Shown here piece by piece: positions 1,148 to 13,851 of a stretch of DNA of 64,000 nucleotides. The translations under genes and the position numbers were made by a program. The first letter of the stretch is position 1. Each line of letters begins with the position of its first letter. The notes below the pieces were generated by a model. That model made no database searches and was not told the DNA's origin. It saw only the letters and a list, made by a program, of their open reading frames with translations. Where the stretch lies: the NCBI RefSeq assembly GCF_007570865.1, contig NZ_VLPS01000007.1, positions 124,001 to 188,000 on the forward strand, written 5' to 3'. The DNA comes from Atlantibacter subterraneus. GTDB lineage: Bacteria; Pseudomonadota; Gammaproteobacteria; Enterobacterales; Enterobacteriaceae.

Positions 1148-1162
1148 AAAACAAGATAGTCC
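1148..1162 (+). promoter_or_regulatory. Promoter-region motif shared with the metK-paralogue promoter
   Basis: The 15-mer AAAACAAGATAGTCC matches 14 of 15 bases of AAAACAAAATAGTCC on the minus strand at 11489-11503, upstream of the MetK paralogue. A second short match (CGCAA) follows at the same distance in both. The motif may be a common regulator site or a shared -10 region (GATAGT). It lies 134 bp before the first shell gene. Confidence 0.35.
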
Positions 1163-1295
1163 CGCTGGCGCGCAAAACATTTTGTCTGAATAACCTTAGC
1201 ATCATGATGAGTCAATAATTAACGCACATGGGTAAATCCGTGGATTGCTATTCCTCTGTGCACGTTTTCTTTCTATCGGAAATATCGAGGTTGTT

Positions 1296-1577
1296 ATGCA
1301 ACAAGAAGCATTAGGAATGGTTGAAACGAAAGGCCTGGTTTCTGCAATTGAAGCCGCAGACACCATGGTGAAATCTGCCAACGTAACCCTGGTGGGTTAT
1401 GAAAAAATCGGTTCTGGCCTGGTGACCGTAATGGTTCGTGGCGACGTGGGCGCAGTAAAAGCCGCCACCGACGCGGGCTCCGCCGCTGCGGGTAAAGTGG
1501 GCGAGCTGGTCTCCGTACACGTTATTCCGCGTCCGCACATTGAGGTGGAAAAAATTCTGCCGAAGGCCGTCGGTTAA
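1296..1577 (+). CDS. BMC-H shell protein, PduA/PduJ-like
   Basis: A single-domain BMC protein of 93 residues that forms cyclic hexamers, the main facets of the microcompartment shell with a central pore for diol entry. It is very similar to PduA throughout: [13 protein letters not shown] at the N terminus, the helix [34 protein letters not shown] and the C-terminal [17 protein letters not shown] chose the ATG at 1296, preceded by the ribosome-binding sequence CGAGG, over a longer upstream reading because PduA homologues start with MQQEA. It is the first shell gene after the candidate regulatory repeats, and 21 bp precede the PduB-like gene. The pore loop (KIGSG) is of the type usual for small diol metabolites. 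Confidence 0.95.
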
Positions 1578-1598
1578 TAACAATAAAGGATACTGATC

Positions 1599-2384
1599 AT
1601 GAGAGATAATCTTGTTGAGCAGATTATATCTGACGTAATGAATAAACAAACCGGCGCACAACCGAAAGCCAGTAACGCGGCAAATTTTGCCGGTTGTGGT
1701 ATTACGGAATTTGTCGGCACTGCGTTGGGTCACACTATCGGCCTGGTGATTGCCAATGTCGATAATCAATTACATGAAGTTATGAATATCGACAAGAAAT
1801 ATCGCTCTATCGGTATTCTGGGCGCACGTACCGGCGCTGGCCCGCAAATTTTTGCGGCTGACGAAGCAATCAAAGCAACTAACAGCGAAATTATTTCTAT
1901 CGAGCTGGCCCGCGACACCGAAGGCGGTGGCGGACACGGTTGCTTAATTATTTTCGGCGCGTCTGATGTTTCCGACGTCAGACGTGCGGTTGAAGTGGCG
2001 CTGTCTGAAATTGAACGCACCATGGGCGACGTTTACGGCTCGCCAGCGGGTCACCTTGAATTTCAATACACCGCTCGTGCCAGCTATGCGCTGAACAAAG
2101 CGCTGGGCGCGCCGGTTGGCAAATCCTTCGGGATGACCTGCGCCTCGCCAGCGGCGATTGGCCTGGTGATTGCCGACGCAGCGGCGAAATCTGCCGTGAT
2201 CGATCCGGTGGGTTATGCCAGCCCGTCGAAAGGCACCAGCTTCAGCAACGAAGTGATTTTTACCTTCTCCGGTGATTCCGGTGCGGTACGCCAGGCGGTG
2301 ATTGCCGCGCGTGAAGTCGGCCTACAACTGCTCTCCACGTTAGATCCGGCGGAAATCAAATCCACCACGACGCCGTATATCTAA
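1599..2384 (+). CDS. BMC-T shell protein, PduB-like trimer
   Basis: A tandem-BMC-domain shell protein of 261 residues that assembles as pseudohexameric trimers. It is recognised by strong similarity to PduB: N-terminal LVEQIISDVMNK, then TEFVGTALGHTIGLVIANVD, YRSIGILGARTGAGPQI, the glycine-rich DTEGGGGHGCLIIFG, and SPSKGTSFSNE with FSGDSGAVRQAV in the second domain. The N-terminal 30 or so residues before the first BMC domain resemble the PduB segment that links shell to cargo. The Gly-rich stretch is expected at the substrate channel. The gene follows the PduA-like gene closely and is separated by 60 bp from the aldehyde dehydrogenase gene, so all three are probably one transcript. Confidence 0.94.
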   Translation: MRDNLVEQIISDVMNKQTGAQPKASNAANFAGCGITEFVGTALGHTIGLVIANVDNQLHEVMNIDKKYRSIGILGARTGAGPQIFAADEAIKATNSEIISIELARDTEGGGGHGCLIIFGASDVSDVRRAVEVALSEIERTMGDVYGSPAGHLEFQYTARASYALNKALGAPVGKSFGMTCASPAAIGLVIADAAAKSAVIDPVGYASPSKGTSFSNEVIFTFSGDSGAVRQAVIAAREVGLQLLSTLDPAEIKSTTTPYI

Positions 2385-2444
2385 GCATCGGGTGACGACG
2401 CGCGCGACGCGGTCGGCAGAGGAAGAGTAGTAAGGAATTTAAAG

Positions 2445-3965
2445 ATGAATGATATTGAAATCGCTCAGGCTGTCTCGACCATTCTGAGCAAATTCACCAA
2501 AGCAACACCGGATGCGGTTCCGGCAGCGGCTCCCGCCACGTCAGAAACGGCGCGAGTCGAAGGCCTGGATGAAATCGTCGCTAAGGCGCTGGCGCAGCAG
2601 TCCTCCGGGCGCGCCGCCTGTGCAACACCTCAGGTAGCGAACGCCGGAACAGGCGCGTTCGAGACCATGGATGAGGCGATCTCCGCCGCGGTCCTGGCGC
2701 AGGTGCAGTATCGCCACTGTTCTATGCAAGACCGTGCTTCGTTTATCAATGGCATTCGTGACGTTTTCCTGCAGGAAGATGTGCTGAGCGCTATTTCCCG
2801 TATGGCGGTGGAAGAGACCGGCATGGGGAACTACGAGGACAAGCTGATCAAAAACCGCGTCGCAGCGCTGAAAACGCCAGGTCTTGAAGATCTGGCCACC
2901 AGTGCGGTTACCGGAGACGGTGGTTTAACGTTGATCGAGTACTCCGCGTTCGGGGTGATTGGTTCGATTACGCCAACCACTAACCCGACCGAAACCATTA
3001 TCAACAACAGCATCGGCATGCTGGCAGCAGGCAACACCGTGGTGTTCAGTCCGCATCCGCGCTCGCGCAAAGTATCGCTGTATGCGGTGGAGCTGATTAA
3101 CAACAGGCTCGCTCAGTTGGGTGCTCCGGCGAATATGGTCGTCACGGTGACCAAACCGTCTATCGACAACACCAACGCCCTGATCAACGACCCGCGTATC
3201 AACATGCTGGTCGCGACCGGTGGCCCGGCTATCGTGAAAACTGTGATGTCATCCGGTAAGAAAGCGATTGGCGCAGGTGCAGGCAACCCGCCAGCGGTAG
3301 TGGACGAAACGGCGGATATCGAAAAAGCGGCCCGCGACATTATTAAAGGCTGTAGCTTTGATAACAACCTGCCGTGTGTGGCGGAAAAAGAAGTGATTGT
3401 GGTGAACCAGGTGGCGGATTATCTGATTCATTGCATGAAGAAAAGCGGTGCCTATCTGCTGTGCGATAAGAAGCTGATTCAGCAACTGCAATCGCTGGTG
3501 CTTAACGAAAAAGGCACCGGTCCGAATACCGCCTTTGTCGGTAAAGATGCGCGTTACATTCTGCAACAGCTGGGGATCACGGTTGGCGACGATATTAAAG
3601 TCATCTTGATTGAGACGGAGAAAACCCATCCGTTCGTGGTGCACGAGCTGATGATGCCGGTCCTGCCGGTGGTGCGCGTCGATAACGTTGATGAAGCCAT
3701 CGAGCTGGCGGTGAAAGTGGAGCACGGCAATCGCCATACCGCGATTATGCACTCTACCAACGTCGAAAAACTGACCAAAATGGCGCGCCTGATCCAGACC
3801 ACCATCTTTGTTAAAAATGGCCCCTCTTATGCGGGGCTGGGGGTGGGTGGCGAAGGGCATGCCACCTTTACGATTGCCGGGCCGACCGGCGAAGGGCTTA
3901 CGTCAGCACGCGCGTTTGCACGCCACCGTCGCTGCGTAATGGTTGAAGCGCTGAATATTCGCTAA
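2445..3965 (+). CDS. CoA-acylating aldehyde dehydrogenase, PduP/EutE-like, with encapsulation peptide
   Basis: Oxidises the toxic aldehyde (propanal expected here) with NAD+ and CoA to acyl-CoA inside the shell. At 506 residues it is longer than PduP (about 460). The first 17 or so residues, MNDIEIAQAVSTILSKF, form an amphipathic helix like known encapsulation peptides. An Ala/Pro-rich linker follows to about residue 60, then the dehydrogenase fold. The catalytic cysteine is Cys311 in FDNNLPCVAEKE, and GPTGEGLTSARAFARHRRC marks the C terminus. Good spacing to a Shine-Dalgarno AAGGAAT supports the start. It sits between shell genes, as pduP and eutE often do. Preference for propanal over acetaldehyde is inferred from context. 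Confidence 0.95.
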   Translation: MNDIEIAQAVSTILSKFTKATPDAVPAAAPATSETARVEGLDEIVAKALAQQSSGRAACATPQVANAGTGAFETMDEAISAAVLAQVQYRHCSMQDRASFINGIRDVFLQEDVLSAISRMAVEETGMGNYEDKLIKNRVAALKTPGLEDLATSAVTGDGGLTLIEYSAFGVIGSITPTTNPTETIINNSIGMLAAGNTVVFSPHPRSRKVSLYAVELINNRLAQLGAPANMVVTVTKPSIDNTNALINDPRINMLVATGGPAIVKTVMSSGKKAIGAGAGNPPAVVDETADIEKAARDIIKGCSFDNNLPCVAEKEVIVVNQVADYLIHCMKKSGAYLLCDKKLIQQLQSLVLNEKGTGPNTAFVGKDARYILQQLGITVGDDIKVILIETEKTHPFVVHELMMPVLPVVRVDNVDEAIELAVKVEHGNRHTAIMHSTNVEKLTKMARLIQTTIFVKNGPSYAGLGVGGEGHATFTIAGPTGEGLTSARAFARHRRCVMVEALNIR

Positions 3966-3986
3966 CCATCGCGAAGGGTATCAAAG

Positions 3987-4286
3987 ATGAAAAAACGAAT
4001 CATAAACGCGCCAACTCCGGATATTTTGGCCATGTTGAAACGGCGTATGCCCGGGGAGTTTCGTTCGCGTCTGGATTTGATTCGTATCGACGCCATTGGT
4101 TTGTTAATGCTGCCGGTTCCGGATCTCTATTTTTATGCCGACGTAGCCAGCAAAAGCGCCAATGTGGTGGTATCGGAAATCTTTGGTAGTTGCCCTCAGC
4201 ATATCACCACCCTGGCCATTTTTGGCGAAGTCGCGGCGGTGCATGAAGCCATGCGAATAATTGAGGAAGACGACAACCAGTTTTAA
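3987..4286 (+). CDS. grpU: GrpU-type BMC shell protein with iron-sulphur motif
   Basis: A 99-residue divergent BMC-domain protein. BMC features are visible in DAIGLLMLPVPDLYFYADVA, KSANVVV and the closing segment LAIFGEVAAVHEAMRIIEED. It carries GSCPQH (residues 67-72, Cys69, His72). This fits the G-x-C-P-x-H motif that I recall as the Fe-S cluster site of GrpU, a shell protein confined to glycyl-radical propanediol microcompartments. Three Cys69 side chains or more around the pore could hold a cluster and pass electrons to the interior. The gene lies 21 bp after the aldehyde dehydrogenase gene and before the DJ-1 gene. PduU/EutS, the other divergent class, lacks this motif. Cluster binding here is inferred from the motif. 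Confidence 0.82.
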   Translation: MKKRIINAPTPDILAMLKRRMPGEFRSRLDLIRIDAIGLLMLPVPDLYFYADVASKSANVVVSEIFGSCPQHITTLAIFGEVAAVHEAMRIIEEDDNQF

Positions 4287-4296
4287 GAGTTCGCTT

Positions 4297-4872
4297 ATGA
4301 AGAAGATATTACTTATCGCAGGCGATTTCTCTGAAGACTATGAAGTCATGGTGCCATGGCAGGCATTAAGCATGTTAGGTTTCAGAGTGGATGTAGTGTG
4401 TCCGGGAAAACGAACCGGCGAGTTTATTAAAACCGCGATTCATGATTTTGAAGGTGATCAGACGTATACCGAAAAACCCGGACACCTTTTTAGATTAACC
4501 GCATCATTTGATGAAATAAGGTTACAGGAATATTGCGGCATTTATATTTCAGGCGGGCGTTCATCGGAATACCTGCGATTAAATAAATCGGTTCTGAATA
4601 TTGTGCATTATGCGATGAACTTTTCATTACCTGTTGCTGCAATTTGTCATGGTCCACAAATTCTGGCCGCTGCGGGGGTATTAAAAGGCAGGAAACTGAC
4701 AGGATATTTTACGGTGAAGCCCGAAGTAGAGATGGCAGGCGGTCTATGGGTGACTGCCGCAGATGATGAAGCCGTCGTCGATGGTAATTTAATTACTGCC
4801 ACCACCTGGATGGGGCATCCGGAAATATTACGTCACTTTATTACTCAGACAGGTACCAGCATTATTCATTAA
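4297..4872 (+). CDS. DJ-1/PfpI family protein of the BMC locus
   Basis: A cytosolic protein of 191 residues with the class-I glutamine amidotransferase-like fold. The nucleophile-elbow cysteine is Cys117 in AAICHGPQILAAAG, and SGGRSSEYLR and the GDFSEDYE loop are typical of PfpI/YhbO proteins. The start at 4297 follows AAGAG and 10 bp after the grpU stop; a longer in-frame start would overlap grpU. DJ-1 relatives act on glyoxals or on damaged proteins, so a role in aldehyde protection of a microcompartment that makes propanal is reasonable but inferred. Base composition is visibly richer in A+T than in the neighbouring shell genes. The family occurs in other glycyl-radical BMC loci. Confidence 0.85.
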   Translation: MKKILLIAGDFSEDYEVMVPWQALSMLGFRVDVVCPGKRTGEFIKTAIHDFEGDQTYTEKPGHLFRLTASFDEIRLQEYCGIYISGGRSSEYLRLNKSVLNIVHYAMNFSLPVAAICHGPQILAAAGVLKGRKLTGYFTVKPEVEMAGGLWVTAADDEAVVDGNLITATTWMGHPEILRHFITQTGTSIIH

Positions 4873-4920: not shown

Positions 4921-7473
4921 ATGTTAGAGAAAGGCTTTTCTAATCCGACTGACCGTGTTGTAAGACTGAAAAATATGATCCTGACGGCGAAGCCGTATGT
5001 GGAATCAGAGCGTGCAGTACTGGCAACCGAAGCATATAAAGAAACAGAACAGCTGCCGGCGATTATGCGCCGTGCAAAAGTCGTTGAAAAAATCTTTAAT
5101 CAATTACCGGTGACAATTCGCCCGGACGAATTAATCGTTGGCGCGGTAACCGTCAATCCTCGCTCGACCGAAATCTGCCCTGAATTCTCTTATGACTGGG
5201 TGGAAAAAGAGTTTGAGACCATGGAGCACCGTGTCGCCGACCCGTTCATCATCCCGAAAAAGACCGCCCAGGATCTGCATGAAGCGTTCAAATACTGGCC
5301 GGGTAAAACCACCAGCTCGCTAGCCGCGTCTTATATGTCCGAAGGCACCAAAGAGAGTATGGCGAGCGGCGTATTTACCGTTGGCAACTACTTCTTCGGC
5401 GGCGTCGGCCACGTCAGTGTTGACTACGGTAAAGTGTTGAAAATCGGTTTCCGCGGCATCATCAATGAAGTCAGCCGCGCGCTGGAAGGGTTAGATCGCA
5501 GCGAGCCGGGCTATATCAAGAAAGAGCAGTTCTATAACTCGGTATTAATCAGTTACAACGCGGCGATCCGTTTTGCCCATCGCTATGCGGAAGAAGCCTC
5601 CCGTCTGGCGCAGCAGGAAACTAACCCGACCCGTAAACGCGAACTGGAGCAAATCGCTCAGAACTGTACGCGCGTACCGGAATACGGCGCGACCACGTTC
5701 TGGGAAGCGTGCCAGACCTTCTGGTTTATCCAGAGCATGCTGCAAATCGAATCCAGCGGTCACTCTATCTCCCCGGGCCGTTTCGACCAGTATATGTATC
5801 CGTACCTGGCGGCGGACAAATCCATTTCGCGCGAATTTGCGCAGGAGCTGGTGGACTGCTGCTGGATCAAGCTTAACGACATCAACAAAACCCGTGACGA
5901 AGTCTCTGCCCAGGCGTTTGCTGGTTATGCGGTGTTCCAGAACCTGTGCTGCGGTGGCCAGACTGAAGACGGTCGCGATGCCACTAACGATCTGAGCTAC
6001 ATGTGTATGGAAGCGACTGCGCACGTGCGTCTGCCGCAGCCGTCCTTCTCTATCCGCGTATGGCAGGGCACCCCGGATGCGTTCCTGTATCGCGCTTGCG
6101 AACTGGTGCGTATGGGGCTGGGCGTTCCAGCGATGTACAACGATGAAGTGATTATTCCGGCGCTGCAAAACCGTGGCGTTTCGCTGCGCGATGCGCGTGA
6201 CTACTGCATTATCGGCTGCGTAGAGCCGCAGGCACCGCACCGCACCGAGGGCTGGCATGACGCCGCGTTCTTTAACGTCGCGAAAGTGCTGGAAATTACC
6301 CTGAACAACGGTCGCGTCGGCAACAAACAGCTGGGCCCGGTCACTGGCGAACTGACTCAGTACACCAGCATGGACGACTTCTACACCGCGTTCCAGAAAC
6401 AGATGGCGCACTTCGTTCATCAGCTGGTTGAAGCCTGTAACAGCGTGGATATTGCCCACGGCGAACGTTGCCCGCTGCCGTTCCTGTCTGCACTGGTCGA
6501 CGACTGTATCGGTCGCGGTAAATCCCTCCAGGAAGGCGGGGCGATTTACAACTTTACCGGGCCGCAGGCGTTCGGCGTGGCTGATACCGGCGACTCCGTT
6601 TATGCCATCCAGAAACAGGTATTCGAAGATCGCAAACTGTCTCTCAGTGAGCTGAAAAGCGCGCTGGACGCTAACTTCGGTTATCCGGTGGGTGCCAACC
6701 CGCACACCCCAGCGGCGAAATCCTCGCTCAACGAGCAGGATATCTATGATGTGGTGAAACGCATCATTGAACAACACGGCGCGCTGGATCCGGCGGCGAT
6801 TAAAAACGAAGTGTACCGCCAGCTGACTTCCGGCAGTGCGGCACCGGTGCAATCCGGCACGATGTCCCGTCACGAAGAGATCCGCCGTATTCTGGAGAAC
6901 ACGCCGTGCTTTGGTAACGACATCGATGACGTGGATTTAGTGGCGCGTAAATGTGCGCTGATTTACTGCCAGGAAGTCGAGAAATACACCAACCCGCGCG
7001 GCGGCCAGTTCCAGGCCGGTATCTATCCGGTGTCTGCGAACGTGCTGTTTGGTAAAGACGTTGCCGCACTGCCGGATGGCCGTCTGGCGAAAGAGCCGCT
7101 TGCGGATGGCGTATCTCCACGTCAGGGTAAAGACACCCTGGGCCCAACCGCCGCAGCCAACTCGGTGGCCAAACTGGACCACTTTATTGCCTCCAACGGT
7201 ACGCTCTATAACCAGAAATTCCTGCCGTCTTCTTTGGCTGGCGAGAACGGTCTGCGTAACTTTAGCGGCCTGGTGCGCAACTATTTTGATAAGAAAGGGA
7301 TGCACGTCCAGTTCAACGTTATCGACCGCAACACCCTGATCGAAGCCCAGAAACATCCTGAGCAACATCAGGATCTGGTAGTACGCGTCGCGGGCTATAG
7401 CGCCCAGTGGGTAGTTCTGGCGAAAGAAGTTCAGGACGACATCATCAGCCGTACTGAGCAACAACTGTCGTAA
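4921..7473 (+). CDS. B12-independent glycyl radical diol dehydratase (1,2-propanediol/glycerol type)
   Basis: A glycyl radical enzyme of 850 residues expected to dehydrate 1,2-propanediol to propanal. The glycyl radical is Gly825 in RVAGYSAQWV, and the thiyl cysteine is Cys433 in IIGCVEPQ with Glu435. Asn156, His164, His281-Ser282 and Asp447 (GWHDAAFFN) fall at exactly the residue numbers that I recall for the active site of Clostridium butyricum glycerol dehydratase. Choline lyase CutC differs at the position equivalent to His446. At 850 residues it is longer than that enzyme because of extra sequence between Cys433 and the radical loop. No N-terminal targeting extension is seen. It is the signature enzyme of the locus and lies upstream of its activase. 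Propanediol is favoured over glycerol by the PduP/PduB/PocR-like neighbours. Confidence 0.93.
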   Translation: MLEKGFSNPTDRVVRLKNMILTAKPYVESERAVLATEAYKETEQLPAIMRRAKVVEKIFNQLPVTIRPDELIVGAVTVNPRSTEICPEFSYDWVEKEFETMEHRVADPFIIPKKTAQDLHEAFKYWPGKTTSSLAASYMSEGTKESMASGVFTVGNYFFGGVGHVSVDYGKVLKIGFRGIINEVSRALEGLDRSEPGYIKKEQFYNSVLISYNAAIRFAHRYAEEASRLAQQETNPTRKRELEQIAQNCTRVPEYGATTFWEACQTFWFIQSMLQIESSGHSISPGRFDQYMYPYLAADKSISREFAQELVDCCWIKLNDINKTRDEVSAQAFAGYAVFQNLCCGGQTEDGRDATNDLSYMCMEATAHVRLPQPSFSIRVWQGTPDAFLYRACELVRMGLGVPAMYNDEVIIPALQNRGVSLRDARDYCIIGCVEPQAPHRTEGWHDAAFFNVAKVLEITLNNGRVGNKQLGPVTGELTQYTSMDDFYTAFQKQMAHFVHQLVEACNSVDIAHGERCPLPFLSALVDDCIGRGKSLQEGGAIYNFTGPQAFGVADTGDSVYAIQKQVFEDRKLSLSELKSALDANFGYPVGANPHTPAAKSSLNEQDIYDVVKRIIEQHGALDPAAIKNEVYRQLTSGSAAPVQSGTMSRHEEIRRILENTPCFGNDIDDVDLVARKCALIYCQEVEKYTNPRGGQFQAGIYPVSANVLFGKDVAALPDGRLAKEPLADGVSPRQGKDTLGPTAAANSVAKLDHFIASNGTLYNQKFLPSSLAGENGLRNFSGLVRNYFDKKGMHVQFNVIDRNTLIEAQKHPEQHQDLVVRVAGYSAQWVVLAKEVQDDIISRTEQQLS

Positions 7474-7581: not shown

Positions 7582-8499
7582 ATGAATAAAGTTGAGTACG
7601 AAACCGAAGGCGTCATATTTAATATTCAACGCTATTCTTTGCATGATGGTCCAGGCATACGCACCATTCCTTTTTTTAAAGGCTGCCCACTGTCCTGCAA
7701 ATGGTGTAGTAATCCTGAATCACAACGTCCACAGCCAGAGTTATTATTTAAAAAGAATGATTGTATCCGCTGTGGAAAATGTATTGAGGCTTGTCCGCAA
7801 CAGGCGCTTTCCACCACTAATGCCTGGTTTATCGATCGCGACCGCTGTATTCAGTGTGGTAAATGTACCGAAGTTTGCCCAACCCGTGCGCTGGAAATGA
7901 AGGGCAAGCGCATGTCGGTAACCGCAGTGATGCGCGAACTGGAAAAAGAAGAGAATTTATACCGTCGCTCAGGCGGCGGGATTACCCTGTCCGGCGGTGA
8001 ACCGCTGGCGCAGCCGGAATTTGCCCGTGAGCTGCTTAAAGCCTGTAAAGCCAAAGGCTGGCACACCGCCATTGAAACCACCGGCTTTACCACTAAAGCG
8101 GTGATTGATGAGGTATTTCCCTATGTCGATCTGGCGTTAACCGATATCAAAGCCATCGATCCGGAAATCCATGAGCGTAACACCGGCGTTAATAACAGCG
8201 TGATTCTGGAGAATTTGTTGCGCATCTCCTTTTTAACCAAAGTGGTGGTACGTATTCCGGTCATCCCCGGGGTGAATGATAATCCGCAGGAAATCCACAA
8301 TATCGCGGAGTTCGCCCGCCTGATGCAAAACGTTGATACCATTCATTTATTGCCTTATCACAGCTTCGGTGAAAATAAATATAATTTACTGGGCCGCCAG
8401 TATCCGATGGGTGATGCAAAAAGTATTGAAGAAGCAAAAATGGCAACCTTAAAAGCAACGGTTGAATCCTTAGGATTTAGTTGCCATATCGGCGGTTAA
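7582..8499 (+). CDS. Glycyl radical enzyme activase (radical SAM)
   Basis: Abstracts a hydrogen from Gly825 of the dehydratase using S-adenosylmethionine and a [4Fe-4S] cluster. It has 305 residues. The radical-SAM site is Cys35-x3-Cys39-x2-Cys42 in FKGCPLSCKWCSNP, preceded by HDGPGIRT. Two ferredoxin-like clusters follow at Cys61/64/67/71 (CIRCGKCIEAC) and Cys89/92/95/99 (CIQCGKCTEVC), as in the activases of diol, choline and benzylsuccinate enzymes. LSGGEPLAQPEF matches the family SAM-binding GGE motif. It lies directly after the dehydratase gene and ends in an intrinsic terminator at 8516-8544, so the left operon probably ends here. Electron donor is unknown; GrpU is one speculative candidate. 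Confidence 0.95.
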   Translation: MNKVEYETEGVIFNIQRYSLHDGPGIRTIPFFKGCPLSCKWCSNPESQRPQPELLFKKNDCIRCGKCIEACPQQALSTTNAWFIDRDRCIQCGKCTEVCPTRALEMKGKRMSVTAVMRELEKEENLYRRSGGGITLSGGEPLAQPEFARELLKACKAKGWHTAIETTGFTTKAVIDEVFPYVDLALTDIKAIDPEIHERNTGVNNSVILENLLRISFLTKVVVRIPVIPGVNDNPQEIHNIAEFARLMQNVDTIHLLPYHSFGENKYNLLGRQYPMGDAKSIEEAKMATLKATVESLGFSCHIGG

Positions 8500-8643: not shown

Positions 8644-9549
8644 ATGAATAGCTTAGATATTTTAGTTGCCTTCGGCGGCGGCATATTTGGCGCAGCTGTT
8701 GGCGCGCTGGCGGCATTTGAATTCGTTGGGCTTCTGGTTATCGCCATGGCGGTAGTGCAAATTATTACCGGCGCACCATCGGACTTTATTACTTTTCCGT
8801 TTGGGCTGTTTGGACCGCATACCGGCGGCTTTGCCGCTGGGGTTGCGGCGACGGCGTATGCAGCGAAGAAAGGTAAGCTGGGTTCCGGGCGTGATATCAC
8901 CGCCGGGTTGAGTGGTCTGGCGGCTTACGATGTGCTGCTGGTAGGTGGGGTTTTCGGGGCGGGCGGTTACATCATCGCCTGGGGGTTAAACCAGATCCCG
9001 GCCTTCCCGTCCGGCAATGCCTGGACCGATACTGTAGCGCTAACCGTGGTGATTTCTGGCGTGGTCTCGCGTCTGGTTTTCGGCAAAACTGGCCTGTTTG
9101 GCAAACCGGAACAGGGAATTCGTCACTGCTATCCGCCGCAGGATAAGTGCTGGATGCCTTACCATAGCCGCATTCCGCAGCTTTCCGTGCTGGGCCTGGG
9201 TATTGGACTGATGGCAGGCTTTTTAGGCCTGAAGTTTGGCGGCAACGGCGCGCTGCTGGCGTTTGGTATTTCCGCGTTCTCGCTGATTTTCCTGCATTTC
9301 AACACTCAGGTACCGGTGTCGCATCATATTGCGCTGCCTGCTGCGCTGGTGGCGGTACTATCGGGTAGCCTGATTTGGGCCGCAATCGTTGGAATTATTT
9401 GCGCGCTGTTGGGTGAACTGATGTCGCGTATTTTCCTGATCCACGGCGATACCCATATTGACCCGCCGGCGATGGCCATCGCCATTATGACCACGATGAT
9501 TAATCTGCTGGCGACCATTGGATTATTTACCCTGGTTCCCCTGTTTTAA
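8644..9549 (+). CDS. Polytopic inner-membrane protein of the BMC locus, unrecognised family
   Basis: 301 residues, very rich in Gly, Ala, Leu and Ile, with about eight predicted membrane-spanning stretches. Examples are residues 5-40, 85-115, 130-150, 180-215 and 225-300. The loops are short, except for one hydrophilic segment near residues 155-175 with CYPPQDKCWMPYHSRIP. I do not recognise the family. Location in a diol-degradation cluster suggests uptake or efflux of the diol, aldehyde or acid, but no transporter motif is evident. It follows the activase terminator by about 100 bp, starts after an AGAGGT-like ribosome site, and ends before a strong hairpin, so it is probably a single-gene transcript on the same strand. 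The two cysteines in the loop could be conserved and deserve an alignment. Confidence 0.8.
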   Translation: MNSLDILVAFGGGIFGAAVGALAAFEFVGLLVIAMAVVQIITGAPSDFITFPFGLFGPHTGGFAAGVAATAYAAKKGKLGSGRDITAGLSGLAAYDVLLVGGVFGAGGYIIAWGLNQIPAFPSGNAWTDTVALTVVISGVVSRLVFGKTGLFGKPEQGIRHCYPPQDKCWMPYHSRIPQLSVLGLGIGLMAGFLGLKFGGNGALLAFGISAFSLIFLHFNTQVPVSHHIALPAALVAVLSGSLIWAAIVGIICALLGELMSRIFLIHGDTHIDPPAMAIAIMTTMINLLATIGLFTLVPLF

Positions 9550-9560
9550 TCCCACACGCA

Positions 9561-9593
9561 AAAAAGCCAGCAGGGTCTGCCTGCTGGCTTTTT
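9561..9593. terminator. Bidirectional intrinsic terminator
   Basis: A 14 bp perfect stem, AAAAAGCCAGCAGG (9561-9574) with CCTGCTGGCTTTTT (9580-9593), and a GTCTG loop. It has A and T tracts on both sides, between the membrane-protein gene (+) and the tailed shell gene (-). Confidence 0.9.
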
Positions 9594-9663: not shown

Positions 9664-10209
9664 TTATTTTTTCTTGCCGCCGGGACGGGGACCTTTCTTT
9701 GCTGCTTCCTGCGGTACATCAGATTTTGTGGGTTCAGTGTTTTCTGTTGCGGGTTTAACCGGTTGCTGCTGTTCCACGGACTTCAGCGTTTCATCAGTGA
9801 CATCCATACAGGATGCGCTGTCTGACGTATCAAGGTTCACCACCGGGATTGTCTGTGAAGGCGAGTCTTCAGCTTGCGGTGCAAGTTGCGCAGCAGGCGC
9901 TTCAGGTTCAGGCTGCGCCACGCCGACGGTCTCTTTAGAGTGAATAATATGCTCGATATGCTGCGCGGTGCGGGCGATCACCTTATGGGCATACACCTCG
10001 CCAACCCGGCTTGCCGCGCTGATGGCTGCTGCTACCGCCGCGTTAATCGCGCCCACTTCACCTTCCAGCTTCACGGTCACCATCCCGCCGCCTTTCGTCA
10101 ATTCATAGCCTACCAGACTAACGTTAGCGGATTTCATGGCTGCATCGGCGGCTTCTACCGCCGCAGCCATCCCGACGGTTTCGATTAAGCCTAAACTTTG
10201 CCCGGACAT
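9664..10209 (-). CDS. BMC-H shell protein with long disordered C-terminal tail
   Basis: A 181-residue protein. Residues 1-90 are one BMC hexamer domain (MSGQSLGLIETVG, AADAAMKSANVSLVGYE, EVGAINAAVAAAISAA). Residues 95-181 are a low-complexity tail rich in Pro, Glu, Gln, Ala and Ser, with one Cys (SASCMDV) and a basic end, GPRPGGKKK. The start at 10209 follows AGGAGAAG; a longer open frame upstream would overlap the metK paralogue. It is co-oriented with that gene and 44 bp downstream of it, so the two look like an operon. PduK and EutK also carry C-terminal extensions, but this tail is not recognisably either. A role in tethering cargo or ordering shell assembly is inferred. Confidence 0.88.
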   Translation of the reverse strand: MSGQSLGLIETVGMAAAVEAADAAMKSANVSLVGYELTKGGGMVTVKLEGEVGAINAAVAAAISAASRVGEVYAHKVIARTAQHIEHIIHSKETVGVAQPEPEAPAAQLAPQAEDSPSQTIPVVNLDTSDSASCMDVTDETLKSVEQQQPVKPATENTEPTKSDVPQEAAKKGPRPGGKKK

Positions 10210-10253
10210 AAACTTCTCCTGTAATAAATTCAACTGTGCTGCGCGTCGTCGGC

Positions 10254-11405
10254 TTAACGTCCAACGTCTTCGCGTAATAGCGCCGCTTTGTCCGTGACTT
10301 CCCACGGAAAGCTGTCGCGACCAAAGTGGCCATAGCAGGCCGTTTTACGATAGCGGGGGACCAGCAGGTCGAGCATAGTAATGATGCCGAACACGCTAAG
10401 GTCGAAATGGCGGTTAACAGCTCGCTGCAACGCCTCAGATGACACGGTTTGCGTACCGAAAGTGTTGATCCTGACGGAAACAGGGCGGGGCAGGCCAATG
10501 GCCCATCCCAACTGAACTTCACAGCGTGAGGCAAGCCCAGCGGCGACGATGTTTTTCGCCACGTAGCGAGCGGCGTAGGCGGCGGAACGATCGACTTTCG
10601 ACGGGTCTTTACCGGAAAACGCACCGCCGCCATGACAGGCCGCGCCGCCATAGGTATCAACAATAATTTTACGGCCCGTTAGCCCGCAATCACCCACCGG
10701 CCCGCCAATCACAAAACTGCCTGCCGGATTCACCAGAAAGCGGGTTTGTGGCGTAAGCCAGCGCGACGGCATCACCGGTTTAACGATCTCTTCGATGACC
10801 GTTTCCCGTAACACCTCCAGTGAAACGTCCGGGCTGTGTTGGGTAGACACCACGACGGTATCTACCGAATGAACGCGGTTATCCTGATAGCGCAGGGTGA
10901 CCTGGCTTTTGGCATCGGGGAGTAAAAACGGTAGCCGTTGGGATTTACGCAGCTGCGCCTGGCGCTCCATCAGACGATGGGCGTAAACCAGCGTGGCGGG
11001 CATCAGTTCCGGGGTTTCGTCACAGGCGTAACCGAAGGTGATACCCTGATCGCCCGCACCCAGTTCTTCCATTGAGTGGCCGCGAATGCCGTCAGCAATA
11101 TTGGCGGACTGTTTGCCGAGGATGTTCAATACGCCGCAGGTGTTGCCATCAAACCCCAATCGCGAATGGTCATAGCCAATCTCTTTGATGGTGTTGCGGA
11201 CAATCTGCTCGATATCCACGGCAGCATGGGTAGTGATTTCTCCTGCGACAATAGCAACGCCGGTTTTCACCAGGCATTCGCAGGCAACCTTGCCCCACGG
11301 GTCCTGCAGGAGAACAGCATCCAGAATGGCGTCGGATATCTGGTCCGCCATTTTATCGGGATGCCCTTCGGCAACGGATTCGGAGGTAAACAGGTAATCG
11401 TTCAA
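10254..11405 (-). CDS. S-adenosylmethionine synthetase, BMC-associated MetK paralogue
   Basis: Makes SAM from ATP and methionine. It has 383 residues, like E. coli MetK (384). Family signatures are intact: [59 protein letters not shown] and [19 protein letters not shown], covering the catalytic His, Asp, Lys and Arg positions known from E. coli MetK. The start is a rare TTG at 11405. It is inside the BMC locus between a shell gene and the two-component system. It is probably a second copy, since housekeeping metK lies elsewhere in enterobacteria, next to galP/speA. A plausible job is feeding SAM to the radical activase, perhaps within the shell. No targeting extension is visible. Confidence 0.93.
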
Positions 11406-11412
11406 AGCGAGG

Positions 11413-11463
11413 CCACTTGTCTGGAAGGTTTATTCCTATCTTAGGGGGCAACCAGACAAGTGG
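11413..11463 (-). promoter_or_regulatory. 12 bp inverted repeat in the leader of the metK paralogue
   Basis: CCACTTGTCTGG (11413-11424) and CCAGACAAGTGG (11452-11463) are perfectly complementary across a 27 nt loop. The start-proximal arm ends 7 nt before the TTG start and contains the only Shine-Dalgarno-like bases (AAGTGG), so an RNA hairpin would mask the ribosome site. No T-run follows. It could alternatively be a DNA operator. Confidence 0.7.
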
Positions 11464-11488
11464 GCGTAAACTATATTGCGGGTGTGTT

Positions 11489-11503
11489 GGACTATTTTGT
11501 TTT
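11489..11503 (-). promoter_or_regulatory. Promoter-region motif shared with the BMC operon leader
   Basis: On the minus strand AAAACAAAATAGTCC matches the element at 1148-1162 in 14 of 15 positions. It lies about 84 nt upstream of the metK-paralogue start, between the response-regulator stop and the inverted repeat. This position suits a promoter or activator site for the metK/shell transcript. Confidence 0.35.
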
Positions 11504-11524: not shown

Positions 11525-12589
11525 TCACGCCATCGCCGGGTAATCCCCCGGGCTCACGACTTTCCGATAATCGGAGGGGGCCATGCCGGTCTCTTTTTTG
11601 AAGATGCGGCAAAAATAGTTTGAGTCCTGGTATGCCAGTTCCAGCGCAATGGTATTCACTTTTAAATCGCTGAACTGTAACAACGATTTGGCGATAGTAA
11701 TTTTGCGCGTGGCAATATAGTTCGAAAACCCGATGCCGGTTATTTTCTTAAAGGCGCGGCTCAGGTAGCAGGAGCTGACAAATGATTTTGCCGCCACGTC
11801 ATCAAGCGTCAGGTTTCTGAGAATATTTTTCTCAATATGGAATTTCGCCCGTTCGATAAAATCGATATTACCGGTATAGCTTTTGAAGGCGTAATCAAAG
11901 AGTTCTTCGCTGATGGTCAGCAGGCTGATCATGATACGGAAATAGCGGCTTTCCATCACGCCATACTGATTGATGTCTTTGATCAGCGCGGCGACTTTAC
12001 GGTTGGTCGGGGCTAATTTTTCCCCTTTCTCAGTCATATACTGGCTAACGATTTCCAGAAAATCAGTCACGTCTTTGCGCTTATCTTCTTCCATCATATC
12101 CACCGGACATGCGCCGTTGATGGTGTCAAAAATAAAGCTGTGCCACTGGGCGTAATCGCAGTTGTCTATCATGGCGAACACTTTCTGCTTCAGGGCGCGG
12201 GATTTTTCATTGTCCCCTTCGTCGAACGCCAGGGTTCTTTTGATGGTGTCGGTCAGGATGCTTTTTTTCACCGGCTTGAGCAGGTAATCATCCACTTTCA
12301 GGTTGTACATGCTGCGCACGATATCAAAGTCGTCATTGGCCGTGGTGACGATAACTTTGGTATCGCTGTTCTTTTTCTTCAGGTATTCAATCACCTGGTT
12401 GCCATTCGGCAACGGAATATTAATGTCCACGAAGATCATGTCGATCTGGCTCAACTGGTCGATCAACTGAATCGCTTTTTTACCGGTCGAGGCTTCATGA
12501 ATTACGGCATTTTCCACGCACTGGGAAATAATCCGCCGCAGGGCTTCTAATTCGATGGGCTCATCTTCAACGATAACAATGTTAAACAT
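11525..12589 (-). CDS. Response regulator with AraC-type DNA-binding domain
   Basis: 354 residues. The N-terminal receiver domain (about 1-120) has acidic residues Glu8/Asp9, phospho-acceptor Asp55 in FVDINIPLPNG, a Thr in VTTAND and Lys in DYLLKPVKK. The C-terminal domain (about 250-350) is an AraC double helix-turn-helix: LDDVAAKSFVSSCYLSRAFK, then ALELAYQDSNYFCRIFKKET, ending in SDYRK. The architecture is that of YesN-type regulators that pair with LytS-like kinases. The kinase gene ends 17 bp upstream on the same strand, so they are an operon. The likely targets are the BMC operon and the metK/shell operon, whose leaders carry a shared motif. Direct targets are inferred from position. Confidence 0.93.
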   Translation of the reverse strand: MFNIVIVEDEPIELEALRRIISQCVENAVIHEASTGKKAIQLIDQLSQIDMIFVDINIPLPNGNQVIEYLKKKNSDTKVIVTTANDDFDIVRSMYNLKVDDYLLKPVKKSILTDTIKRTLAFDEGDNEKSRALKQKVFAMIDNCDYAQWHSFIFDTINGACPVDMMEEDKRKDVTDFLEIVSQYMTEKGEKLAPTNRKVAALIKDINQYGVMESRYFRIMISLLTISEELFDYAFKSYTGNIDFIERAKFHIEKNILRNLTLDDVAAKSFVSSCYLSRAFKKITGIGFSNYIATRKITIAKSLLQFSDLKVNTIALELAYQDSNYFCRIFKKETGMAPSDYRKVVSPGDYPAMA

Positions 12590-12606: not shown

Positions 12607-13851
12607 TCAGGCTTCCAGCATCGGGAACCGAAGTTTAATGGTTGTACCCATCCTGGGCTTGTTAGGGCTCATGATGTCCAGGCCATAGCGCTCGCCAAAT
12701 AACAGCTTCAATCTGTTTTTTATGTTGTTGATACCAATACTGCCTTTCTGCAAATTCTGGTCCCCTGACAAAATATGGCTGATGGCTTCCGGCGCAATAC
12801 CATCGCCGTTGTCAGTGACTTCGATAATGACGTCTTGCCCGTCATCCGTGGCGCGGATCAGCAAGTGACTACTGCTGTCGCGCGGTTCCACCACATAGTT
12901 AAAGAAGTTTTCCACCAGCGGCTGCAGGATCAAAAACGGGCAAACCACCTCCAGATACTTTTCCGGGATATCGCACAGGTAATCGAAGCGGTCACTCATG
13001 CGTACTTTCTGTATCGACATATAGCTGTTGACGTAATTCATCTCGTTACGCAGCGTAATCAGGCCATGATTATTTTTGCGTAACAGGTAGCGCATCATGT
13101 CAGAAAAATCGTGCACCATGGTTTCGGTGCGCTGCGCATCTTCCAGAAAAGCTAACCGGCCAATAGTATTTAATACGTTAAATAAAAAGTGTGGATTTAT
13201 CTGATAAGAGAGCGCTTTGAACTCAGCTTCATGTAATGAGCGCTCAATCTCTACGCGTTTTCTTAATTCATTAGTGAGTTCGAGATCTTTTTTACGTAAT
13301 TCGCGTTGAATATTATTGGCGTGGGCCTGTTCAACAAGGTAAGAGGATACATGTAATAACGTCGACGCGGTGGATTCAAAGCGCTCGTAAGGCATACGAC
13401 GTGTATTCTGGTGCAAATTAATTAACCACGGATTTTCTTCCCAGACTTCATTGTTATTCAGAATATAGGGAATACTCTGCTCTTTCTCTTCTTCAACTTT
13501 CACCTGTCCGGAAATAAATGCGCCGAGATAATGGTCGTTGATCATGATCGGTACAGCAAACTCGACAAAACCGCAGTAGCAGCGATAGACCACCGGTTCA
13601 CGAGCATGCATTGCGGCGCGGCCACCGGCGTTGTCGCTTTCATAACAGTGGTGCGCCAGCGTCGGGTTGAGCCGCGAGCGCGCGCAGAAGTCTGAAAAAC
13701 CGCTGGGTTTCGTTACCGGGACGCCGTTCTCATCGACAACCACCAGCGCGATCATCATCGATTTTGAAAAGTTATCCTGCAGGGTCTGAAGGCGTTTTAC
13801 ATCCAAAAACTCATGTAATTTGTATTTATTCATCATACTTTCAGCCCGCAT
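12607..13851 (-). CDS. LytS-type histidine kinase with N-terminal PocR sensor domain
   Basis: 414 residues, no membrane segment, so a cytosolic sensor. Residues about 15-175 match the PocR ligand-binding domain: [34 protein letters not shown] and [11 protein letters not shown] short coiled coil follows (about 180-212). The kinase core has [14 protein letters not shown] with His221, then an ATPase domain with [15 protein letters not shown] and [11 protein letters not shown]. In Salmonella PocR binds 1,2-propanediol to activate pdu genes, so this kinase likely senses the same diol or a close analogue. The start at 13851 is uncertain: two tandem ATGs at 13836 and 13833 (MMNKYK) are alternatives. 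It is co-transcribed with the response regulator. Confidence 0.92.

Follow-up and report, generated by a model that had tools for sequence, protein, structure and literature searches.

Glycyl radical microcompartments of the GRM3 type are already known to carry their own SAM synthetase. Axen et al. (2014) list a SAM synthetase and a two-component pair among the accessory genes of GRM3 loci, and give as the reason for the synthetase that the glycyl radical enzyme needs SAM (PMC4207490). In C. beijerinckii, the GRM3 metK appears in a rhamnose transcriptome table (PMC6384099), and in a synthetic glycyl radical compartment MetK was co-expressed and unencapsulated (PMC11346464). The grp cluster of CFT073 is described as having 21 genes, all in the same direction, and more than 10% of ECOR strains as fermenting propanediol by the grp route (PMC13210347, citing Lundin et al. 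2020).

In RefSeq E. coli annotation, grpR is named propanediol utilization system methionine adenosyltransferase and grpS shell hexameric protein. Lundin et al. in 2020 reportedly deleted 19 of 19 grp genes one by one and found 8 to be needed; the needed shell genes are said to have been named as grpE, grpH and grpI, and induction to be mediated by GrpP/GrpQ.

Shell hexamers with long extensions are also on record. A 2021 catalogue records BMC-H extensions as long as 200 residues (PMC8217296), cells from which PduK or EutK has been deleted have their organelles mainly at the poles (PMC9132943, PMC12487888), and the PduK extension is suggested to face outside, into the cytosol (PMC9132943). 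A dedicated SAM supply for GRM3 has been in print since 2014, and the points added here are an apparent double recruitment of metK, a missing SAM riboswitch and a constant tail. In the parts of the 2014 taxonomy, the C. beijerinckii paper and a 2024 review drawn on here, we found no discussion of metK recruitment or riboswitch loss.

A GRM3-type propanediol locus

The window, by which we mean the whole stretch of 64,000 nucleotides analysed here (G000:C13:124001-188000, part of a 4.6-Mb genome), contains a GRM3-type, B12-independent propanediol microcompartment locus (Table 1). Its glycyl radical diol dehydratase, whose E. coli counterpart is GrpM, is accompanied by an activase and has, at about residues 590-660, the inserted segment that in enzymes of the GRM3 type is the predicted encapsulation peptide. 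The genome is close to Citrobacter freundii M-21 (dehydratase 98% identical) and Silvania (97%); dehydratase identity to the enzymes of loci L008, L009 and L010 is 98, 97 and 90%. A shell hexamer, a shell trimer and an aldehyde dehydrogenase are present, as are, by eye, a vertex protein and a kinase, with named E. coli counterparts. The GRM3b subtype (Ferlez 2019) is marked by a GrpU-like protein together with the absence of PduS and PduT; here a GrpU-like BMC-H is present, and no PduS or PduT was noticed among the open reading frames read by eye. Outside the window, upstream of the plus-strand unit, we read by eye apparent genes for alcohol dehydrogenase, PduL and EutJ-like, flavoprotein-like, vertex and heme-binding-like proteins, and an apparent kinase gene spans the left edge of the window. 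All five BMC-domain matches in the genome (5/5) fall in this locus.

On the minus strand, the order of transcription is PocR-domain kinase, AraC-type regulator, metK and BMC-H gene, a grpP-grpQ-grpR-grpS block that is convergent with the plus-strand unit running from the PduA-like hexamer through the membrane protein. grpR lies upstream of grpS on the same strand, 44 bp away, and the two face a terminator-like hairpin; they look like one transcription unit. This agrees with the apparent two-gene operon of the original prediction, which also placed the pair at the right coordinates. When 9664-11405 was compared by megablast with 5,426 complete E. coli genomes, matches were found in 536, of which 535 cover at least 80% of the query; 533 lie at 90-95% identity and 3 at 80-90%. 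In one E. coli record, SCZE5, grpR and grpS sit within grpD-grpS. The two genes are ordinary components of a locus that is already known and named.

Table 1. Features of the GRM3-type locus, in coordinates of the window
Feature	Coordinates	Strand	Basis
Candidate GrpQ operator, second and weaker site, identical in form, before the grpH (PduA-like) unit	1151..1184	plus	
PduA-like hexamer, PduB trimer, aldehyde dehydrogenase, GrpU-like BMC-H, PfpI-like protein	1290..4872	plus	
GrpU-like BMC-H with GSCP	3987-4286		ORF list, Pfam
grpM, glycyl radical diol dehydratase	4921..7473	plus	profile matches, E. coli counterpart
grpN, radical-SAM activase, SAM consumer	7582..8499	plus	profile matches, E. coli counterpart
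Membrane protein, counterpart of RefSeq permease GrpO	8644..9549	plus	E. coli counterpart; no Pfam/NCBIfam match
Convergent terminator-like hairpin, GCCAGCAGG/CCTGCTGGC, between permease gene and grpS	9566..9588		sequence read directly
Tailed BMC-H shell gene (grpS in RefSeq E. coli)	9664..10209	minus	profile search, structure model, E. coli counterpart
Disordered C-terminal tail of GrpS, about 95 aa	9667..9951	minus	tail comparison, structure model
metK paralogue (grpR in RefSeq E. coli)	10254..11405	minus	TIGR01034, Pfam, end comparison, E. coli counterpart
12-bp inverted repeat, CCACTTGTCTGG...CCAGACAAGTGG, flanking -10-like TAAGAT (11438-11443), just before metK	11413..11463		
Candidate GrpQ operator, two GCAARATAGTYYA copies at 21-bp spacing, upstream of metK-grpS	11467..11500	minus	
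grpQ, response regulator, receiver + AraC HTH	11525..12589	minus	profile matches, E. coli counterpart
grpP, histidine kinase with PocR sensory domain	12607..13851	minus	profile matches, E. coli counterpart

A full-length MetK paralogue

GrpR has 383 residues and a TTG start. It scores 593.6 bits against TIGR01034 (curated cut-off 309.4), aligned over model positions 1-375 of 377, and contains three SAM-synthetase Pfam domains. At all 19 of the 19 positions checked, from a list that we take to be the MetK active-site residues, it is the same as the housekeeping copy; the active-site alignment dropped L036, L159, L160, L162 and L176 by its trimming rule and cut short L020, L023 and L026. The expectation of a full-length paralogue with intact catalytic motifs was thus borne out by family score, domains and active-site positions alike. 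The housekeeping metK lies on another contig of the same genome, and its product is 63% identical to GrpR. For grpR, dN/dS is 0.047 to L008 and 0.062 to L009, against 0.007-0.023 in four comparisons of housekeeping metK; constraint on GrpR is looser than on the housekeeping gene. GrpR is probably a methionine adenosyltransferase dedicated to the GRM3 locus.

The original prediction also raised the possibility that MetK is encapsulated. When its ends were compared with those of the housekeeping copy, the window MetK was found to have no encapsulation peptide or terminal extension, which argues against this. The only long candidate targeting extension among 20 GRM MetKs is that of Oscillibacter (L036, 17828-19222), which adds some 80 residues, one stretch of them helix-like, at the C-terminus. 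Several of the 20 have 10-15 extra residues and so, together with this extension, leave room for an encapsulated MetK in some lineages.

One GRM MetK, that of Mixta tenebrionis (L037, 15462-16580), is changed at 7 of 17 checked positions, including the equivalents of D118, D238, K269 and D271, and is for that reason unlikely to make SAM. With the exception of the PfpI-like one, the other genes searched for were all found in that locus. Its sequence reads as that of a decaying or repurposed copy.

Distribution, gene order and origin of the second metK

The family survey covered 392 genomes. The dehydratase was found, with at least 83% identity, in 23 of them, and these are also the genomes that have the tailed hexamer (E up to 1e-30). 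Two further dehydratase matches, at 58-59% (G304, G364), lie in genomes with one metK. At least two metK matches were found in 23 of the 23 genomes with the GRM3 dehydratase versus 5 of the 369 without it, or 5 of 305 when only those with any metK match are counted (64 of the 369 have none); the genomes are related, and the p-value of a Fisher test on this co-occurrence is not to be read literally. The five exceptions comprise genomes with metK in pieces (G028, G051), with another paralogue (G019, G317) and with a single copy by protein search (G230). By protein search, the second metK is on the dehydratase's contig and within 8 kb of it in 22 of 23 genomes; the copy in G318 is split and that in G298 reaches only 61%. 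In G064 the second metK lies beside grpS on another contig. The 48 loci whose dehydratase is below 60% identity have no metK in the stretches covered.

In a Clostridium genome (G404; L030 / L183), the only metK found is the GRM3-locus copy: either the draft lacks the housekeeping metK or the whole cell is supplied by the GRM copy. Another kind of extra metK, present twice in G374, occurs in one genus of the family (L178-L181; G374, G019, G317) and shares about 80% identity with the housekeeping copy. In L178, L180 and L181 it stands, by eye, directly after a cyclopropane fatty acid synthase-like gene. Such a synthase also consumes SAM, so that here again a local metK has a SAM-using enzyme as its neighbour.

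For gene order we compared the 33 loci, the window's among them, whose dehydratase reaches 60% identity; in 23 of them metK lies in the stretch covered. The order kinase-regulator-metK is found in 16 of these 23. In four, metK comes directly after the activase (alphaproteobacteria L020 and L023, Firmicutes L033 and L045), and in three it stands behind a paralogous aldehyde dehydrogenase gene. Both metK and the tailed hexamer are present in 20 loci; they are neighbours in nine of these, all from Enterobacterales. In the family set the two genes adjoin, by coordinates, in 21 of 23 (the exceptions, G046 and G180, are of one genus), and of 21 fetched loci the two lie side by side in 19, with gaps of 12-69 bp.

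In a 58-row tree, from which L017 and L037 (of 11 proteobacterial GRM MetKs) and L030 (of 12 others) were left out, the proteobacterial GRM MetKs (9 rows) and the Firmicutes and alphaproteobacterial ones (11 rows) are separate, each with support of 100/99, and the proteobacterial group is placed among gammaproteobacterial housekeeping copies. Uniting all GRM MetKs in one joint clade costs 35.7 log-likelihood units (p-AU 0.0207), a result that is support rather than proof because the grouping was chosen after the first tree had been seen. In this tree, metK has apparently been recruited twice into GRM3 loci.

Regulatory sequences

A SAM riboswitch lies upstream of 8 of 10 Firmicutes housekeeping metK genes (2 of 10 are without) and was found in none of 10 Firmicutes GRM stretches and neither of the two alphaproteobacterial ones. 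In the eight genomes with both kinds of metK, it accompanies 6 of 8 housekeeping copies versus 0 of 8 GRM copies. An Rfam scan revealed no SAM riboswitch near metK in the window. The single Rfam family matched there, a weak Thr_leader (29.7 against a gathering score of 55), is taken as chance. For MetJ boxes, the best match before housekeeping copies, 10-12 of 16, is close to the random 95% level of 11, which gives no indication either way of an escape from MetJ in Enterobacteria.

A 21-bp-spaced repeat that precedes both transcription units is a candidate GrpQ site. The metK-side repeat is present in 9 of 9 other loci scanned and the grpH-side repeat in L008, L009 and E. coli. The metK sites themselves supplied the consensus, and one of five 30-kb shuffles scored as high as the weaker, grpH-side site (21), whose weight therefore comes from its conserved place.

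The inverted repeat closer to metK is mostly kept in L008, L009 and E. coli (10-bp arms) and was not found in the more distant relatives aligned. The fold of the metK leader is better than 200 of 200 shuffles in E. coli and unremarkable in the window (z -1.67). As the window fold is not unusual and the conserved -10-like element lies within the repeat, an RNA hairpin leader is doubtful. A multi-copy operator was also considered for this repeat and rejected: its two exact copies are the arms of one repeat, and the seven sites found when two mismatches are allowed are no more than chance would give, as 10 of 100 shuffles yield at least that number.

A constant tailed hexamer

The start of grpS is the ATG at 10209, and the ORF limit at 10305 is not the start. 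GrpS has the tailed BMC-H form, with one PF00936 domain (residues 5-80) and a long C-terminal extension. From about residue 80 onwards its structure model shows no secondary structure, and pLDDT, in means of ten, is 47-61. The disorder foreseen for the tail is therefore upheld, whereas its length has to be corrected from 85 to about 95 residues because the model is disordered from that point on. The tail consists of an acidic, proline-rich body, a TIPVVNLD..SCMD block (~9802-9852) and a basic end, KKGPRPGGKKK. It has neither the cysteine motif of PduK nor the nucleic-acid-binding domain of EutK (there is a single Cys and no further Pfam domain), and GrpS is accordingly not filed as either.

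All 25 of the 25 GRM3-type loci with at least two hexamers have a tailed one, including six without metK in the stretch covered. In five of those six (L024, L029, L031, L034, L077) only one metK in the genome exceeds the cut-off, and trees place it with the housekeeping type; as these loci do without one, a dedicated metK is not essential to the pathway. The sixth is Raoultella L014, whose GRM metK lies elsewhere, beside phage-like genes. Among loci with a dehydratase below 60% and at least two hexamers, a tail was found in 3 of 29, two of them with a PduK-like cysteine motif; cysteine-motif tails occur in L039 and L079.

The body is negative in 38 of 38 distinct tails, and the last 15 residues carry +3 or more in 36 of 38. 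Compared with shuffles within the same tail, the basic end is significant at p<0.05 in 39 of 43 rows (L022, L025, L027 and L077 fail). Dropped from this test were the frameshifted L017 and L127, the cysteine tails of L039 and L079, and L061; no tail was obtained beside metK in L137 and L138. Outside gammaproteobacteria, the tails are alike in composition, not sequence. In the loci surveyed, the GRM3 shell consistently includes a tailed hexamer, in most cases acidic in the body and basic at the end, whether metK is present or not.

Within most gammaproteobacterial GrpS tails, an IPVVN-like block, often followed by Cys, is kept, and the rest changes fast. In Raoultella sp. BIGb0138, the N-terminus of the tailed hexamer is altered (L014, 14667-15257), and kinase, regulator and metK lie on another contig (L182, 1035-5459) beside genes that by eye are phage-tail-like, as if the unit had been split by insertion or rearrangement.

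Discussion

We read the pair as grpR-grpS of a known GRM3 locus, with GrpR a cytosolic, dedicated SAM synthetase and GrpS a tailed minor hexamer of the PduK/EutK/CmcE kind, and give this reading a probability of about 0.72. Propanediol would be sensed by GrpP/GrpQ, and GrpR made together with dehydratase and activase. GrpR, most likely soluble and cytosolic, would then raise SAM while many dehydratase copies each need a glycyl radical from the SAM-consuming activase; because it has a gene of its own, it can evade the feedback control that keeps housekeeping metK low. GrpS would be a minor shell hexamer in which the BMC domain is followed by a disordered tail, acidic but with a basic end; this tail probably points into the cytosol and serves to anchor or space the organelle. 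Anchoring or spacing is our best guess by analogy, because PduK and EutK keep organelles off the poles; the acidic body and basic end of most tails would fit this kind of hexamer. That grpR and grpS share one transcript in Enterobacterales would reflect local gene order and not a tail that holds MetK.

The idea of a private SAM supply for the activase of the locus is the part of the original prediction that fares best. Judged by gene content and phylogeny, it is well supported, with co-occurrence, activase-metK adjacency, two apparent recruitments and the lack of a SAM riboswitch in the GRM loci scanned all pointing to it. A competing explanation on this point is that GrpR is a gene-dosage copy that offsets a general SAM drain in anaerobic propanediol fermentation, its tie to the locus being one of regulation and not of the activase. 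Such a copy might well sit, as metK mostly does, beside the two-component system and not the activase (16 of 23), and might have the TTG or GTG starts seen in the nine enterobacterial loci aligned. However, metK directly adjoins the activase in alphaproteobacteria and Firmicutes, and it is missing from the stretches of the 48 loci with a more distant dehydratase, so we regard a dosage role as distinctly improbable.

The other alternatives concern the tail. That it tethers MetK to the shell, or helps to pack it inside, and so keeps a private SAM pool near the activase is very unlikely: tails are present without any dedicated metK, adjacency among the 20 loci with both genes is confined to Enterobacterales, the window MetK is without an extension, non-gammaproteobacterial tails share composition and not sequence, and extensions of this kind are believed to lie on the cytosolic side (PMC9132943). 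These facts outweigh the adjoining of the genes, by coordinates, in 21 of the family's 23 genomes with GRM3, the survival amid fast change of an IPVVN-like block that is a plausible short binding motif, and the view that the activase itself rides in on the dehydratase. For docking by the tail, the relatives offer no support. What had been proposed as a new, shell-tethered module for cofactor regeneration becomes a named accessory pair of a known locus. Unlikely, too, is that the tail is a core-shell linker that recruits the dehydratase or other cargo and does not position the organelle. PduB's N-terminus, PduM and EutQ do the linking elsewhere (PMC9132943, PMC12487888), we noticed no PduM or EutQ among the genes read by eye, and the basic end could bind acidic cargo; yet the nearest kind with data, PduK and EutK, affects position and not cargo loading (PMC9132943, PMC12487888), and the tail presumably faces outward.

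A broader version of our preferred reading, the dedicated cytosolic supply, is more tentative, and we hold it at somewhat below even odds. GRM3 loci would have taken in metK at least twice and freed it from SAM feedback, a convergent, insulated supply of the cofactor needed to activate the glycyl radical enzyme, and the gammaproteobacterial IPVVN-like block might dock a soluble partner, MetK included, on the outside. If this is true, propanediol, and not the SAM level of the cell, is the cue on which SAM is made. Any such dock might be private to gammaproteobacteria. For those who rebuild glycyl radical compartments, these genomes give no reason to encapsulate MetK.

Set beside the systems already described, the window pair is closest to E. 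coli grp, with the same genes, 44-bp gap and TTG start, the same 383 + 181 residues and, among the matches listed, 92.3% DNA identity; the grp genes of SCZE5 are shown all in one direction, whereas the window grpP-Q-R-S block opposes the main operon. The GRM3 loci of Axen et al. likewise have a SAM synthetase and a two-component pair as accessories, but the accessory-gene passage for GRM3 makes no mention of tailed hexamers (PMC4207490). GrpS shares with PduK, EutK and CmcE a BMC-H domain and a long, largely unstructured tail, and differs from PduK and EutK in having an acidic body and a short basic end instead of a cysteine motif or nucleic-acid-binding domain. GrpR, finally, belongs to the same family (TIGR01034) as housekeeping MetK and has the same active site, but is a paralogue at 63% identity whose gene lies inside a microcompartment locus.
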